From the NCBI GenBank assembly GCA_963204825.1, contig CAUJHN010000099.1, positions 1 through 42,898 of the forward strand: a DNA stretch of 42,898 nucleotides, in the 5' to 3' direction. The stretch is from Pseudomonadota bacterium. Lineage in GTDB: Bacteria; Pseudomonadota; Alphaproteobacteria; Micavibrionales; Micavibrionaceae. Positions 16,139-28,461 of the stretch are shown here, piece after piece; the stretch's first letter is position 1; every line of letters begins with the position of its first letter. The notes beneath the pieces are model-generated. The model was not told the origin of the DNA. It saw only the letters and a program-made list of their open reading frames with translations, and searched no databases. The translations under genes and the position numbers were made by a program.

Positions 16139-16156
16139 CCGGATCCCGGGTTTTTT
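16139..16156 (+). terminator. Weak terminator after arsC
   Basis: CCGG-ATC-CCGG followed by G and six T (16139-16156) could end the arsC transcript. The stem is only 4 bp, so this is tentative; the T-run also forms the edge of the FNR-type box. Confidence 0.3.
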
Positions 16157-16168
16157 GATATTTGTCAA
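16155..16168 (+). promoter_or_regulatory. FNR/CRP-type box upstream of host-attachment-family gene
   Basis: TTGAT-ATTT-GTCAA differs from the FNR consensus TTGAT-N4-ATCAA at one position. Its centre is 63 bases before the ATG at 16225. TATGGT (16194-16199) lies where a -10 would be if the box were near -41.5, the usual activating position. Confidence 0.6.
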
Positions 16169-16224: not shown

Positions 16225-16734
16225 ATGAAAACAATGGGTAAAATCACGCAGGAAAACTGGTCCGCCCTGGGGCAGGAGCATTATATGGCGGGCCATCACA
16301 AGATTCCACGCATATGGATTATTGCGGCCGATAGAAGCAGGGTCCGTATATTCAGGAAACCTGACGGGCATCTTGAACAGATCGGCGAGGCATATCCCGA
16401 TTACAAAAGCACTCACGTTTCCAGCCATGCGTTGGGGCGTATTGTCAGTACAGCTGGCACGTTTGTCCGTCACCGGCTGCAGCGCCATAAAAATCCATCT
16501 GAAGGCATGAACACTGAATTCGTCAAGGAACTGGTTCAGTGGCTGGACCGTGCCGTGCATGAGGATGCGTTCGACCGGCTTATCCTTGCCGCTTCGCCCA
16601 GAATGCTGGGTGACTTGAGGAGGAACTTAAGCGCCGGCGTGCAGGCAAGGGTCGTGGCCGAGGTGAACAAGGATTTGACCAAAATGAATGAGCGCGAACT
16701 CTGGGCGGAGCTCAAAGAGATCATCTGGTTTTAA
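16225..16734 (+). CDS. Host attachment protein-family protein (PF10116)
   Basis: The 169-residue protein matches the family named 'protein required for attachment to host cells'. WIIAADRSRVRIFR starts the fold, DRLILAASPRMLGDLRRNL is the most conserved block, and VNKDLTKMNERELW ends it, like eRF1/baeRF-type RNase-H-like folds. No signal peptide is present, so a direct surface role is doubtful; the biochemical role is not established. ATG 16225 has AGGAGG 7 bases upstream (16212-16217), which decides it over the in-frame start at 16162 that overlaps the FNR-type box. The box suggests control by oxygen or nitric oxide. The gene meets the Crp/Fnr gene convergently after 5 bases. Confidence 0.82.
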   Translation: MKTMGKITQENWSALGQEHYMAGHHKIPRIWIIAADRSRVRIFRKPDGHLEQIGEAYPDYKSTHVSSHALGRIVSTAGTFVRHRLQRHKNPSEGMNTEFVKELVQWLDRAVHEDAFDRLILAASPRMLGDLRRNLSAGVQARVVAEVNKDLTKMNERELWAELKEIIWF

Positions 16735-16739
16735 ACCGA

Positions 16740-17513
16740 TCAGGAATTTGCGCGCGTTTTCGCTTTTACCGGGCATGCGCCTTCACAGCAGGATTTTCTT
16801 TTTGCGCCCTGGCAGTCATCCAGCTCTGCGGAGCAATGGCCGCAGCAGTAGTCGGCCAGGCGCTGAAAATTGTCGATCGTAATTTCAGGTCCTTTGACGG
16901 TTACGCCAAACGGTTTTAATTGGGCGAGAGCCCTTGAAAATGTTTCCGTCTGCATGCCCAGGCGGGCGGCGGCGAGCGACTTATCGTAAGGAAAAGAAAA
17001 TGTTCCCCCTTTGCCAATCATGCCGGAGCTCAGCTGAAGGAGCAGGCATCCCGCGCGCTGGGGCGTACTCATGATCGCCATATGCTCGTTTTCCATCTGA
17101 AGCTTGTGCATCTCCCGCGACATAGAAGCCATCATCCGGGTTAAAAGCTCCGGGTGCGCTTTCGCGTGTTCTTTGATAAATGCTGCCGGGATTTCGAGAA
17201 TGCGGCTTTCCTCTGCGGCAACGGCTGAAAAAGGATAACCGGTATTGCCGAAAACAGCGGCCTCTCCGAAAACATCGCCCCGCGTGAACAGGGCGACAAC
17301 GGATTCTTCGCCCTGATCCGTCATCCGGAAAAGTTTCACCCAGCCGCTGATAATCGCAAAGAACCGTTCTGCCCTGTCGCCCTGATGCAGGACGGTTTTA
17401 CCTTTTGCGTAGTCTTTTAAAATGGAAGATTGAAGGATGGCGCTGAGTTCGGTGTCCGACATGCCTTTGAAAAAGGGGAGTGCGGAAAGAATGGGGGTTG
17501 CGATTTCAGCCAT
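16740..17513 (-). CDS. Crp/Fnr-family regulator with cysteine-rich C-terminal tail
   Basis: The 257-residue regulator has a cyclic-nucleotide-binding-like beta barrel (about 10-120; VLHQGDRAERFFAIISGWVKL, GDVFGEAAVF), a dimerisation helix (about 120-148) and a Crp-type winged helix at 150-215 with LAARLGMQTETFSRALAQL, whose E190 and SR at 193-194 are the bases-contacting residues of FNR-like proteins recognising TTGAT. FNR's N-terminal cysteines are absent. Instead seven cysteines fall within residues 223-247 (C223, C224, C227, C234, C242, C243, C247), after the DNA-binding domain. This tail could bind a metal or iron-sulfur cluster, an inference. FNR-type boxes lie before both flanking genes. 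Confidence 0.87.
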   Translation of the reverse strand: MAEIATPILSALPFFKGMSDTELSAILQSSILKDYAKGKTVLHQGDRAERFFAIISGWVKLFRMTDQGEESVVALFTRGDVFGEAAVFGNTGYPFSAVAAEESRILEIPAAFIKEHAKAHPELLTRMMASMSREMHKLQMENEHMAIMSTPQRAGCLLLQLSSGMIGKGGTFSFPYDKSLAAARLGMQTETFSRALAQLKPFGVTVKGPEITIDNFQRLADYCCGHCSAELDDCQGAKRKSCCEGACPVKAKTRANS

Positions 17514-17606: not shown

Positions 17607-18185
17607 TTATAGCGCCTTTTTGCCAAGCGCCCGCATCTCCAACAAATAGCCCTCCCGCCTTTTATCGCTCGGGTTTTCGACCAGGCCGCAATAGGTGGTG
17701 CGGATTGAGCCAAGACCTATGAAATGTAAAATAGAAATCAAGGACTTAATGGCATGCCGTCCAAAAATCCATTTATAGGCGAAAGCGGGCATGCCCATGG
17801 TCTGGACCAGGCGCGCGCTTTTACCTTTCAAAAGCGGGATGGCCTTGGCTCCGGAAAGATCATAGGCGAAGCCCTGTGTGAGACACCGTTCAAAAAATCC
17901 TTTCAGAAGAGCGGGGATCATGAATTGCCAAAGGGGATAAACGATAACCCAGTGGTCGCACTCTAGCATATATTGACGCAGAAGAAGAATGTCCTGCTCT
18001 GCCTCCTGCTGGCCGTGATAGCCCTCGTGCAGAATGGGGTCGAAAGATAAATCCGCAATTTTAATCAGCCTGACGGTATGCCCGCCTTCCTTCGCGCCTT
18101 CGGCATAGGCGCGGCCAAGGGCTTCACAAAAACTTATACGCTTCCTCGCAGGGTTGCCGATTAAGATCAGAATGCGCCGTTTCAT
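17607..18185 (-). CDS. NAD(P)H:quinone-oxidoreductase-like flavodoxin-fold protein (KefF/MdaB type)
   Basis: The 192-residue protein has the flavodoxin-like fold of NAD(P)H dehydrogenases (quinone). RILILIGNPARKRISF is the FMN phosphate loop region, and WVIVYPLWQFMIPALLKGFFERCLTQGFAY is the family's best conserved block, giving flavin and substrate contacts. Such enzymes reduce quinones with two electrons, or activate Kef channels (KefF). I chose ATG 18185, since the earlier ATG at 18233 overlaps a perfect FNR box. The gene is thus probably controlled by the neighbouring Crp/Fnr protein or another FNR homologue. A KefB-like antiporter gene lies 2 kb away but is not adjacent. Confidence 0.83.
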   Translation of the reverse strand: MKRRILILIGNPARKRISFCEALGRAYAEGAKEGGHTVRLIKIADLSFDPILHEGYHGQQEAEQDILLLRQYMLECDHWVIVYPLWQFMIPALLKGFFERCLTQGFAYDLSGAKAIPLLKGKSARLVQTMGMPAFAYKWIFGRHAIKSLISILHFIGLGSIRTTYCGLVENPSDKRREGYLLEMRALGKKAL

Positions 18186-18219: not shown

Positions 18220-18233
18220 TTGATTTCCATCAA
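18220..18233 (-). promoter_or_regulatory. Perfect FNR box upstream of the flavodoxin-fold oxidoreductase gene
   Basis: TTGAT-TTCC-ATCAA matches the FNR/Anr consensus exactly, and a further inverted TTGAT (18239-18243) makes CCATCAAG-TTT-CTTGATGG at 18227-18245. The box centre is 41.5 bases before the A of ATG 18185, so an activated transcript would be nearly leaderless, or the site acts from another register. Confidence 0.7.
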
Positions 18234-24360: not shown

Positions 24361-27300
24361 ATGCCATATACGAACGTCAACGGGACGAGTGCGAACAATA
24401 TTTTATTGTTTGTTGGAACGTCCGCGTTTTACAACCAGACGCTGATTAATCCATACAGCGGCTATACGGTCACCGTCACCGGCACAAAAAACATCAACAA
24501 CGGAATATATGACGGCCTGGGCGGTACGGACACATTGTCCATGACGACGCTGGGCGATGTCCTGACGCTGGTGGATTCCTCCGGCACGATCATGGTGAAA
24601 AACATTGAAATCATCAATGCGGGTTTCGATGGCGACGTAGTCATCATGGCGAATGCGGTTTTCACCTATGGCAATATTACGATCCGCGGCTCCGATGGAG
24701 ATGATGTTCTGTGGTCCAATAACGGAAACGATTTGGTGCAGGGCGGCGCGGGCCGCGACATTATCGATGGCGGCGGCGGTAATGATTTGATGTTTGGCGG
24801 CACGGGCGACGACTATGTTTCCGGCGGTCTGGGAACGGATACTCTCGCCGGCGGTGAAGGCAACGACACGCTGGTATATACGGTGGACGGGACTTGGTCC
24901 GGCGGCAATACGCTGGCCACGCTGGGCTCTTCTCTCTCCTTTGCTGCTATGATCAACCTCGATGGCATGAACCGCAGCTTCGATACATTCAACGGCGACG
25001 CCGATGATGATCTTCAGGTTCCCACTATCGGAACCGACACGCTGCTCATGACGTCCGGCGATGACGTGCTGGTGCTCAGCGATGCACTCAGCCCCACAAA
25101 CAATCTTTTGTCCCCGCGTGTTTCCTACATGGAAGTCATCGATGCCGGCGATGGCAATGACATTGTAGATCTGTCCGGCGGGGCGCATCAGGACGTTACG
25201 ATCCGCGGCGGCAACGGCGCAGATATATTGGCGGGCAGTTCCGGGAACGACACGATTTACGGTGACGCGGGCAACGATAAAATTTCCGGCGGCGGCGGTA
25301 ACGATACGCTCTACGGCGGCACCGGCAACGACACCTACTATTACAATTTGGGACAAGGATCGGACACGATCATTGAAAACACGGGTACGGATTCCATCGT
25401 CTTTGGCCCGGGGATTACCTTTGCAAATCTGACGCTCTCCGCCTCCGGTCTTGATTTGATTGTGGGTATTGGCGCCCAGACGATCACCATTCAAAATCAT
25501 TTTGCCGCCGATGCTGCAGGGCGCGTTGAAACCTTTGTCTTCAACGACAATTCCACGTTTGATGCGGGTTCGTGGTATCCAAACGAAAACCCGAACGCGG
25601 TAAACGATACATTCTCCGGCGATGAAGATGCGCTTATAACGGGCAATGTTCTGGCGAACGATACGGACCATGTCGGCGAAACGCTTTCGGTTACGCCCGC
25701 TTCAATCACCACGGCGAACGGCGGCACTGTAACGCTGAATGCGAACGGAACATTCTCGTATCTGGGCGCCGCAAACTATAACGGCACAGATACGTTTTCC
25801 TATACGGTTAATGATAACCGGGGTGGCTCTTCCATTGCCAATGTTACGCTGAATGTCGCTGCCGTAAACGATACGCCTGTGGCGATCGATGATTCTTTTG
25901 GCGGCAACCGCTTTTCTAATGTCACGGGCAATGTTCTTGCCGATAACGGCCTTGGCGCTGATTCCGACATTGATGCGGATGTTTTAAGCGTGCAGTCCGG
26001 GACGATCGCAACGGTGCACGGCGGCAGTGTCGTCATGAACGCGGACGGTTCTTTTACATACACATCGGCGCCCGGCTTTTATGGAACCGATAGTTTTGAA
26101 TATACCCTGCTGGATGGCAACGGCGGTTCCGCTGCTGCGACCGCAATGCTGGACATCGCCTTCGTCAATGTCGCGCCGGATGCGCAGGACGACGCCTTCT
26201 CCGGCGATGAAGACACGGTCATCACGGGCAATGTCCTGGCGAACGACACGGACGAAATCGGTGAAACGCTGACGGTTACGCCGGCGACGATCACCACCCT
26301 GCACGGGGGAACGGTGACGTTAAATGCGGACGGAACCTTCTCCTATCTGGCTGCGCTGAACTACCATGGCATGGACAATTTCTATTATACGGTGAGCGAT
26401 AACAACGGCGGCGTTTCCATTGCGGCGGTTGCGCTGACGATAGCTTACGTGAACGATGCGCCTGTCGCGGCGTATGATGAATTCTCCGGCCTTCGCAATG
26501 AATCTATCACCGGCAATCTTTTAAACGACAATGGCTCAGGCGTGGATTCCGACATAGACGGCGATACGCTTTCCGTGCAGGCGCAAACGATTGCGAGCGC
26601 GCATGGCGGCACGGTCGTTGTCGCATCGGATGGCTCCTTCACCTACACGGCGAAGGCCGGATTTTATGGTGATGATACATTCTCCTACACGCTGCTGGAT
26701 GGCCAGGGCGGCAACGATACGGCCACTGTATCGCTGCATGTAAACCTGGACGCCTCTACCGCGATCATAGGCACAAGCAGCGCTGAAACCATTACAGGCA
26801 CAACCGGCGCGGATCAGATCTTCGGGCTTGACGGCGATGATATTCTGTACGGCGATGACGGTGTTCTGACAGGCTCAACGCTCGATAAGATTTTTGCAGA
26901 CAATATCGTAATCCCGGAACTGCAGGAACGTGTCAACATCGCGGATCTCAGGCCGCCGGGGACACCCGCGCTCGGTATTGCGGACGGCAATCTCAGCGTC
27001 TCTTACGATGCAACGGCAACGCTGACATTCAGAAAAGGATTTGCCGGTTATGATAACAGCCTTGGCACCTTTGCCATCGCGGCGGACGGCACGCTCAAAT
27101 CGGCCTCCATCGAATGGGGCAACACCAAAACGGCGGGCATCGATGTCGCGCATCAAATAGACCTGCCGACAGGCGCAACAGGCGGCGATTTCGGATTCTT
27201 CATCATCGCGAACGGCAATAACGAAAACCAGGGCTATGCCGGCCTTAACATCGGCGGCGAAGGCAATATCCGTTTCATTTACGACTACGGCAAGGCAACG

Positions 27301-28461
27301 CAGCGCGATGCAAAAATCACCGACGCCGGAAGCAAGGTTTCCATCGTCTACAATGACGGCGTAACGGTAAAAGTTTTAAAAGGGCACACATACTTCACGA
27401 CGGACCGCGGCGAAGCTGCGCCGATCAACAGCGACGGAAAGGTGCATGTCGTCTCCGGCCTTCGTGACTTAAACAACCTGCAACTTGACGTCAAAGCTTC
27501 CGACCTTTCGGGGCAGCCCGCGACCTATACGAAAAACGACATCACGCTTACGGCCTTAACGGGTACGTTGATTTCCACGGCGGACAATCGCGTCGGCATT
27601 AAAACCACAAACGCCAACGGCGGCGATATGATCGGCGGCTCGGAAACGCTGCGCGTAGGTTTCACGGATTCGGAGAAAGTGGTCGTCAGCCTTTCCAACC
27701 TGTCCGCAAACAAAGGGATCGATTTCAAGGTCTATCTGAACGGCGATATGGATCATCCGGTTGCGTATGAATATAAAACCGCCGGCGGGCAGGAAGACAT
27801 TCTCCTTGATTCTTCCATGTTCGGCGGCGCTCTCATATCGGCGATCGATATTTCTTCGGTTTCCAACTCTGCGCTCGGTACCGATAAATTCTGGCTGACC
27901 GACATCCGCGCTTTCGTTCCGGGTGGTCTGGATACGGATCAGATCCGCATCGGCTTTGAAGATCTATACAATACGGGCGACGCGGACTTCGAAGATGTGC
28001 TTTTTGATATAAATATCAATCCCGTTCACATCGGCGATATCGGCGGCGGCAACGATCTTCTGGACGGCGGCGCAGGCAATGACGCGCTTTACGGCGAAGG
28101 CGGCAACGACATCCTCGTCATAGGCCTCGGCGGCGACCATGCGTATGGCGGCGAAGGCGCGGATACGTTTGCGGTCACGCTCATCGATAATCTTGTTGAT
28201 ACGATCCATGATTTCAGCGCGGCGCAGGGCGATGCCATCAATATCGCGGACGTGCTGGAAGGCTATGATCCGCTTTCGGACAATATCGCGGACTTCATCA
28301 AGCTGGTGCAGGTCGGCTCCGATACGCAAATTCAGATCAATGCGGACGGGCAGGGCGCGGATTTCGCGGTTGCCGCGCTGGTCCTGGGCGGCACGGGCGC
28401 AGATCTTGCAACGATGGTCGCCAACGGCTCTCTGGTCGTGGATCACACGGCTCTGGCTTGA
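24361..28461 (+). CDS. Giant type I secreted RTX protein with cadherin-like repeats and DUF4114-like region
   Basis: The 1366-residue protein is probably exported by a type I (ABC/HlyB) system, as it has no signal peptide and ends in a C-terminal secretion region (about 1276-1366, with GDAINIADVLEGYDPLSDNI, resembling the VCA0849-type target domain). Calcium-binding GGxGxD nonapeptides appear at about 110-174, 283-325, 801-834 and 1224-1274. Four Ig/cadherin-like modules fill residues 412-797 (GNVLANDTD, GTFSYL, GTDTFSYT). Residues about 850-1220 end with IGFEDLYNTGDADFEDVLF, the DUF4114 hallmark. Such proteins act as adhesins or biofilm matrix components. No HlyB/HlyD/TolC genes are nearby. 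No enzymatic domain is recognised. Confidence 0.9.
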   Translation: MPYTNVNGTSANNILLFVGTSAFYNQTLINPYSGYTVTVTGTKNINNGIYDGLGGTDTLSMTTLGDVLTLVDSSGTIMVKNIEIINAGFDGDVVIMANAVFTYGNITIRGSDGDDVLWSNNGNDLVQGGAGRDIIDGGGGNDLMFGGTGDDYVSGGLGTDTLAGGEGNDTLVYTVDGTWSGGNTLATLGSSLSFAAMINLDGMNRSFDTFNGDADDDLQVPTIGTDTLLMTSGDDVLVLSDALSPTNNLLSPRVSYMEVIDAGDGNDIVDLSGGAHQDVTIRGGNGADILAGSSGNDTIYGDAGNDKISGGGGNDTLYGGTGNDTYYYNLGQGSDTIIENTGTDSIVFGPGITFANLTLSASGLDLIVGIGAQTITIQNHFAADAAGRVETFVFNDNSTFDAGSWYPNENPNAVNDTFSGDEDALITGNVLANDTDHVGETLSVTPASITTANGGTVTLNANGTFSYLGAANYNGTDTFSYTVNDNRGGSSIANVTLNVAAVNDTPVAIDDSFGGNRFSNVTGNVLADNGLGADSDIDADVLSVQSGTIATVHGGSVVMNADGSFTYTSAPGFYGTDSFEYTLLDGNGGSAAATAMLDIAFVNVAPDAQDDAFSGDEDTVITGNVLANDTDEIGETLTVTPATITTLHGGTVTLNADGTFSYLAALNYHGMDNFYYTVSDNNGGVSIAAVALTIAYVNDAPVAAYDEFSGLRNESITGNLLNDNGSGVDSDIDGDTLSVQAQTIASAHGGTVVVASDGSFTYTAKAGFYGDDTFSYTLLDGQGGNDTATVSLHVNLDASTAIIGTSSAETITGTTGADQIFGLDGDDILYGDDGVLTGSTLDKIFADNIVIPELQERVNIADLRPPGTPALGIADGNLSVSYDATATLTFRKGFAGYDNSLGTFAIAADGTLKSASIEWGNTKTAGIDVAHQIDLPTGATGGDFGFFIIANGNNENQGYAGLNIGGEGNIRFIYDYGKATQRDAKITDAGSKVSIVYNDGVTVKVLKGHTYFTTDRGEAAPINSDGKVHVVSGLRDLNNLQLDVKASDLSGQPATYTKNDITLTALTGTLISTADNRVGIKTTNANGGDMIGGSETLRVGFTDSEKVVVSLSNLSANKGIDFKVYLNGDMDHPVAYEYKTAGGQEDILLDSSMFGGALISAIDISSVSNSALGTDKFWLTDIRAFVPGGLDTDQIRIGFEDLYNTGDADFEDVLFDININPVHIGDIGGGNDLLDGGAGNDALYGEGGNDILVIGLGGDHAYGGEGADTFAVTLIDNLVDTIHDFSAAQGDAINIADVLEGYDPLSDNIADFIKLVQVGSDTQIQINADGQGADFAVAALVLGGTGADLATMVANGSLVVDHTALA
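25594..26751 (+). repeat. Four cadherin-like modules as two A-B pairs inside the RTX gene
   Basis: Modules start at 25594 (A), 25867 (B), 26167 (A') and 26452 (B'), each about 91-100 residues. A and A' share FSGDED-ITGNVLANDTD; B and B' share GADSDID or GVDSDID and GSFTYT-GFYG-DSF. Similarity is A to A' and B to B', not A to B, so a two-module unit of about 580 bp was duplicated. Confidence 0.8.

Follow-up and report, generated by a model that had tools for sequence, protein, structure and literature searches.

A C-terminal cysteine set conserved in a clade of alphaproteobacterial Crp/Fnr regulators, candidate FNR-type oxygen sensors

The regulator and its neighbours in the window

The window, by which we mean the whole 42,898-nt stretch of DNA that was analysed, belongs to a small assembly of 1.94 Mb from an alphaproteobacterium, which is 90% complete. 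It contains a Crp/Fnr regulator gene with a predicted target on either side, and the following features are located at or around this gene.

16740–17513, minus strand: Crp/Fnr regulator coding sequence, 257 aa (ATG at 17513, stop at 16740–16742)
17169–17417, minus strand: cNMP_binding (effector-type) domain, residues 33–115, free of cysteine (Pfam PF00027, E 5e-23)
16848–17048, minus strand: HTH_Crp_2 DNA-binding domain, residues 156–222 (Pfam PF13545, E 9e-9)
16932–16946, minus strand: FNR-type recognition-helix residues E190..S193-R194
17607–18185, minus strand: Flavodoxin_2 / NAD(P)H-dependent oxidoreductase gene (PF02525, E 4e-34), a predicted target from the position of its box
18220–18233, no strand: perfect FNR box, TTGATTTCCATCAA, with its centre 41.5 bp upstream of the ATG at 18185 of the flavodoxin-fold gene
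16225–16734, plus strand: Host_attach / baeRF-family gene (PF10116 / PF18856), convergent with the regulator, a predicted target
16155–16168, no strand: FNR box, TTGATATTTGTCAA, which departs from the strict consensus at one position and has its centre 63.5 bp upstream of the ATG at 16225

The succession of PF00027 and PF13545, both above cut-offs, together with Foldseek matches to Crp/Fnr structures, identifies the protein as a member of the Crp/Fnr superfamily. The closest solved structure is that of Ruegeria pomeroyi SPOA0323 (PDB 3fx3 and 3h3z; phmmer E 1e-38, first in Foldseek), which differs in having no cysteine tail and a Glu at the position of C156. In the region of the DNA-binding domain, AlphaFold2 places helices at residues 150–161, 178–184, 189–197 and 216–224. 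Both AlphaFold2 models have low confidence in the tail. For residues 240–257, the final 18 of the protein, pLDDT is below 50 and the model shows disorder. The tail is real sequence and not the product of a frameshift, because relatives at 55–63% identity align to about residue 250.

The regulator is the only full Crp/Fnr protein detected in the window genome, although a second one could have been missed because the assembly is 90% complete. Named carriers of the gene are chiefly Micavibrio or unclassified alphaproteobacterial assemblies. The first-pass annotation of this DNA had described a recognition helix with the FNR-type E and SR residues and had named a box at 18220–18233; E190, S193 and R194 are indeed invariant among relatives, and the box is a perfect FNR box. 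For the Host_attach/baeRF gene, the ATG at 16225, with AGGAGG just before it, is the best start. Elsewhere in the window (24361–28461) lies a large repetitive ORF of 1366 aa, resembling, by eye, a secreted adhesin of the RTX/VCBS type.

Four invariant cysteines and their likeness to the cluster loop of FNR

The cysteines of the regulator are residues 156, 223, 224, 227, 234, 242, 243 and 247. The first-pass annotation had counted seven cysteines within the last 35 residues and none at the N terminus, and both statements are exact in the ORF translation, where the first cysteine of the protein is C156. At a background of 1%, seven or more cysteines in 35 residues would occur by chance with P ~5e-8. 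The codons concerned are as follows.

17046–17048, minus strand: Cys156, proposed as fourth ligand, in helix 1 of the DNA-binding domain (48 of 48 relatives, compared with 7% of other Crp/Fnr rows)
16842–16844, minus strand: Cys224, candidate ligand, conserved
16833–16835, minus strand: Cys227, candidate ligand, conserved, followed by Ser228
16812–16814, minus strand: Cys234, candidate ligand, conserved
16773–16790, minus strand: codons 242–247, including Cys242, Cys243 and Cys247, variable extras in the tail, unconserved and modelled as disordered

C156, C224, C227 and C234 are invariant in 37 homologues with 35–63% identity to the query, and with the sample widened to the class and phylum, C156 accompanies every C-x2-C-[S/T] tail found. 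Specifically, 17 positions are invariant across the 48 tail-bearing proteins, among which only these four cysteines are rare elsewhere, with frequencies of 4–13% in other Crp/Fnr rows, while the remaining 13 are found at moderate to high frequency in other Crp/Fnr proteins. A Ser or Thr directly follows the second tail cysteine in 50 of 50 tails. In two members of the clade (L050 and L075), the triad is lost and C156 is kept.

The first-pass annotation had proposed a metal or iron–sulfur site behind the winged helix and had called for a comparison of the tail cysteines in homologues, with poor conservation as a result that would speak against it. The comparison did not give that result, and conservation and genome context lend good support to such a site, but with a different ligand set: C224, C227 and C234 are kept, whereas C223, C242, C243 and C247 vary, which rules out a single site made of all seven. 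In addition, C156, which that annotation did not mention, is conserved as strongly as the three tail cysteines. The variable cysteines and the disorder modelled for the end of the protein would also suit a functionless, cysteine-rich tail peculiar to the window protein. This reading is barely credible and already contradicted, as three tail cysteines are invariant in 48 proteins from several alphaproteobacterial families.

The arrangement can be compared with that of E. coli FNR, which has an O2-labile [4Fe-4S] cluster and a dimer–monomer switch and whose ligands are N-terminal plus remote (C20, C23, C29 and C122). The window regulator has neither the N-terminal C-x2-C-x5-C nor the sensory-domain cysteine of canonical FNR, and an N-terminal C-x2-C-x(3-7)-C was found in none of the relatives examined, only in the E. 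coli FNR control. In the distant subclade, however, the tail C-x2-C-[S/T]-x4-C with its remote cysteine has the spacing of C20-x2-C23-S24-x4-C29 with C122 in E. coli FNR. For example, distant-subclade tails read CAACSSEFPC or CNFCSISEEC, compared with the N-terminal CQDCSISQLC of E. coli FNR (from the MG1655 genome); CGHCSAELDDC of the window protein has one residue more before the last cysteine. The Ser or Thr after the second cysteine corresponds to Ser24 of FNR, the residue that determines how its cluster reacts with O2 (PMC4771820).

Comparison with Bacillus Fnr and the phylogeny of C-terminal cysteine sets

Bacillus Fnr has an O2-sensing [4Fe-4S] cluster on three C-terminal cysteines and Asp141 (PMC3520743, PMC12937710), and the cluster of Gram-positive Fnr, located in the C-terminal domain, acts with no dimer–monomer change (PMC12937710). 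The window regulator resembles Fnr of B. subtilis and B. cereus in its Crp/Fnr fold, in the three cysteines behind the winged helix and in its putative role as an anaerobic regulator. The spacing is different, C224-x2-C227-x6-C234 in the window protein and x5-6 in the clade, compared with C227-x2-C230-x4-C235 in B. subtilis and x4 in Bacillus. Furthermore, the position of C156 is occupied by Ser153 in Bacillus, and that of Asp141 by His144 in the clade.

His144 aligns gap-free to Asp141 of B. subtilis Fnr, for which we used a sequence that fits the published numbers of its cysteines and of Asp141. Located at the Asp141 position and nearly invariant (43 of 48 tail-bearing proteins, compared with mostly Gln in other Crp/Fnr proteins), H144 could be the fourth ligand of an iron–sulfur cluster, leaving C156 with another role. 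We regard this arrangement as unlikely: five members have Q, N, S or R in place of H144 and retain all four cysteines, whereas C156 is never replaced. C156 is a new candidate for the fourth ligand, and we prefer a site formed by four cysteines.

The relationships were examined in a maximum-likelihood tree (quick search) with the tail and position 156 left out of the alignment. The four-cysteine proteins form a single clade (SH-aLRT 97, 50 rows), whose members come from several alphaproteobacterial families and mostly from the order of Micavibrio. B. subtilis Fnr joins a Cys-free Aneurinibacillus protein with a support of 100, far from the four-cysteine clade. Deep branches are long, that of E. 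coli FNR most of all, and exact placements are unsure. With these long branches and a B. subtilis sequence matched to the published one by residue numbers only, the tree gives no support to a shared origin with Bacillus Fnr. The C-terminal layout seems, as judged from the sequences compared, to be of separate evolutionary origin from its counterpart in Bacillus. A search for Bacillus Fnr in plasmids found only distant, Cys-free relatives. We found no published report of the four-cysteine clade in the open-licence literature.

C156 and the triad each change only three to four times on the tree. Their co-variation was considered as an independent sign of contact and rejected, since a paired test is powerless with so few changes. 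C156 and the triad share one origin, so that their co-occurrence reflects common descent and long retention, and not repeated co-evolution.

Two further kinds of Crp/Fnr protein with C-terminal cysteines occur in the same order. A second type has the tail C-x2-C-D-x(6-7)-C-x(7)-C, often with a fifth cysteine, and no C156; its members (L042, L043, L045, L088, L090, L168, L169, L171, L173, L174, L177, L179–L183 and L187) form a clade of their own (support 97), usually have an FNR box near, and adjoin ccoN in two genomes (G048 and G051). A third group (L030, L078, L083, L172, L175, L176 and L184) ends in FCD-x(n)-C, has one or two tail cysteines and an Ala or Thr at the C156 position, and several of its members have FNR boxes nearby.

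Because the four-cysteine tail, the second-type tail and Bacillus Fnr fall in separate clades, it appears that sets of C-terminal cysteines originated on three or more occasions. On balance, we lean towards the view that the lineage of the window regulator rebuilt the FNR cluster loop behind the DNA-binding domain as its main O2 switch, apart from Bacillus, and that the second clade did so a third time, which would make this layout a recurrent solution in the superfamily. A C-terminal cluster as such is already known from Bacillus; new here are a fourth cysteine, a spacing that looks like a copy of that in FNR, and an origin that appears to be independent.

Linked genes, FNR boxes and the proposed switch

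The known FnrN targets in Alphaproteobacteria are cco, hemN and the regulator's own gene (PMC4999443), and the surroundings of the four-cysteine regulators contain the same genes. In particular, of 28 relatives with a full-length ccoN, 21 have the regulator gene no more than 10 kb away from it, usually divergent from safE-ccoNOP-ccoG, and two further relatives have a second-type regulator near ccoN. In the close subclade, copies of the gene lie next to hemN and nrdD-nrdG, where boxes are also present. Each of the 19 distant-subclade genes whose upstream region was long enough has an FNR box within 100 bp upstream of its start; none was found upstream of the window regulator gene. In the window genome, two FNR boxes are located between hemN and safE-ccoN.

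The Host_attach/baeRF-family neighbour recurs beside close-subclade regulators in L153, L154, L155 and L158. Tandem duplicates of the regulator (L003, L004 and L006; L154 and L158) occur with a Host_attach/baeRF gene between them. In the second copy, C156 and the triad are retained but the additional tail cysteines are missing, and its gene is preceded by an FNR box.

The window genome has 14 FNR boxes, compared with one for a reversed-pattern control. Such genome-wide counts are weak as proof of regulation: several relatives in which no regulator was detected are box-rich as well, so that counts alone do not show which protein binds. Two genomes (G018 and G032) have 27 and 41 boxes, respectively, compared with none for the control, and the search there yielded no Crp/Fnr protein related to the query; either the regulator was missed or another factor uses the sites. 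We therefore base the argument for regulation on the linkage between regulator and targets and on the upstream position of the boxes.

In its recognition residues, its TTGAT-N4-ATCAA boxes at anaerobic or microaerobic genes and its targets cco, hemN and often itself, the clade is like E. coli FNR and like the alphaproteobacterial FnrN, FnrL and FnrP. Taking conservation, linkage and boxes together, we consider it probable that the regulator is the functional FNR of its Micavibrio-like host, an O2-responsive protein with a predicted [4Fe-4S] cluster on C224, C227, C234 and C156 that controls microaerobic and anaerobic genes.

The four invariant cysteines, as C-x2-C-x(5-6)-C with a remote cysteine, fit zinc as well. 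A Zn(Cys)4 site, structural or thiol-redox, could lock the tail onto the DNA-binding domain of a regulator that answers another signal or is constitutive. Such a site is rather improbable, as targets and synteny point to an O2-responsive FNR, the spacing and the Ser after the second cysteine match the FNR cluster loop, and the one studied C-terminal Crp/Fnr cysteine site, that of Bacillus, holds [4Fe-4S].

A further comparison is with FixK and FixK2 of Rhizobiales and Caulobacterales, which, like the window regulator, have no N-terminal cluster cysteines. They act on cbb3 oxidase genes through FNR-type boxes, as predicted for the window regulator too. FixK has no cluster cysteines at all and depends on FixLJ, whereas the clade described here has four invariant ones. 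FixK2, a cluster-free Crp/Fnr regulator of cbb3 genes, has an oxidisable Cys183 in its DNA-binding domain (PMC12937710). This precedent would allow a cluster-free thiol switch, in which cysteines of the tail and domain are oxidised to a disulfide or sulfenate and DNA binding is disturbed. We consider such a switch very unlikely, because control of the FixK2 type takes one cysteine, and here four are invariant in the spacing of metal ligands.

We thus favour a cluster-based mechanism, whose metal, ligands, O2 response and sign of regulation are all predicted from sequence. A dimer would recognise TTGAY-N4-RTCAA boxes by means of its recognition helix, which is of the standard FNR kind, and the regulon would include the cbb3 oxidase, hemN, the flavodoxin-type oxidoreductase and the baeRF-family gene. 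Cys224, Cys227 and Cys234 of the tail, together with Cys156 in the first helix of the DNA-binding domain, would hold a [4Fe-4S] cluster. When O2 is scarce, the cluster would hold the tail against the DNA-binding domain, and the protein could bind DNA. Exposure to O2, or perhaps to NO, would destroy the cluster and free the tail. Since the four ligands would tie the tail to the first helix, loss of the cluster could alter the DNA-binding domain directly, with no N-terminal cluster involved, as expected for Gram-positive Fnr. The regulator would then work like FNR and be laid out like Bacillus Fnr; differing from the former in the position of its cysteines and from the latter in the candidate fourth ligand and in phylogeny, it is most aptly described as a variant among Crp/Fnr regulators of the cluster type.

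Alphaproteobacterial O2 regulators are sorted by N-terminal cysteines only, into FnrN, with cysteines and cluster, and FixK, with neither (PMC4999443). By this rule, the four-cysteine clade would be called cluster-free, despite its adjacency to cbb3 genes and its invariant cysteine set elsewhere in the protein. If confirmed, the clade would represent a third arrangement among these regulators and, next to Bacillus, another lineage for studying how a cluster can control the DNA-binding domain and leave the dimer interface untouched. It would also provide an O2 switch for predatory or epibiotic relatives of Micavibrio.

A small conserved protein of about 125–140 aa (L142 7469–7834, L160 11376–11798 and six more) is encoded convergently with the distant-subclade regulator. 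Its gene has an FNR box of its own, and the one member compared with Pfam gave no match. From this position and box, the unannotated protein likely belongs to the regulon.
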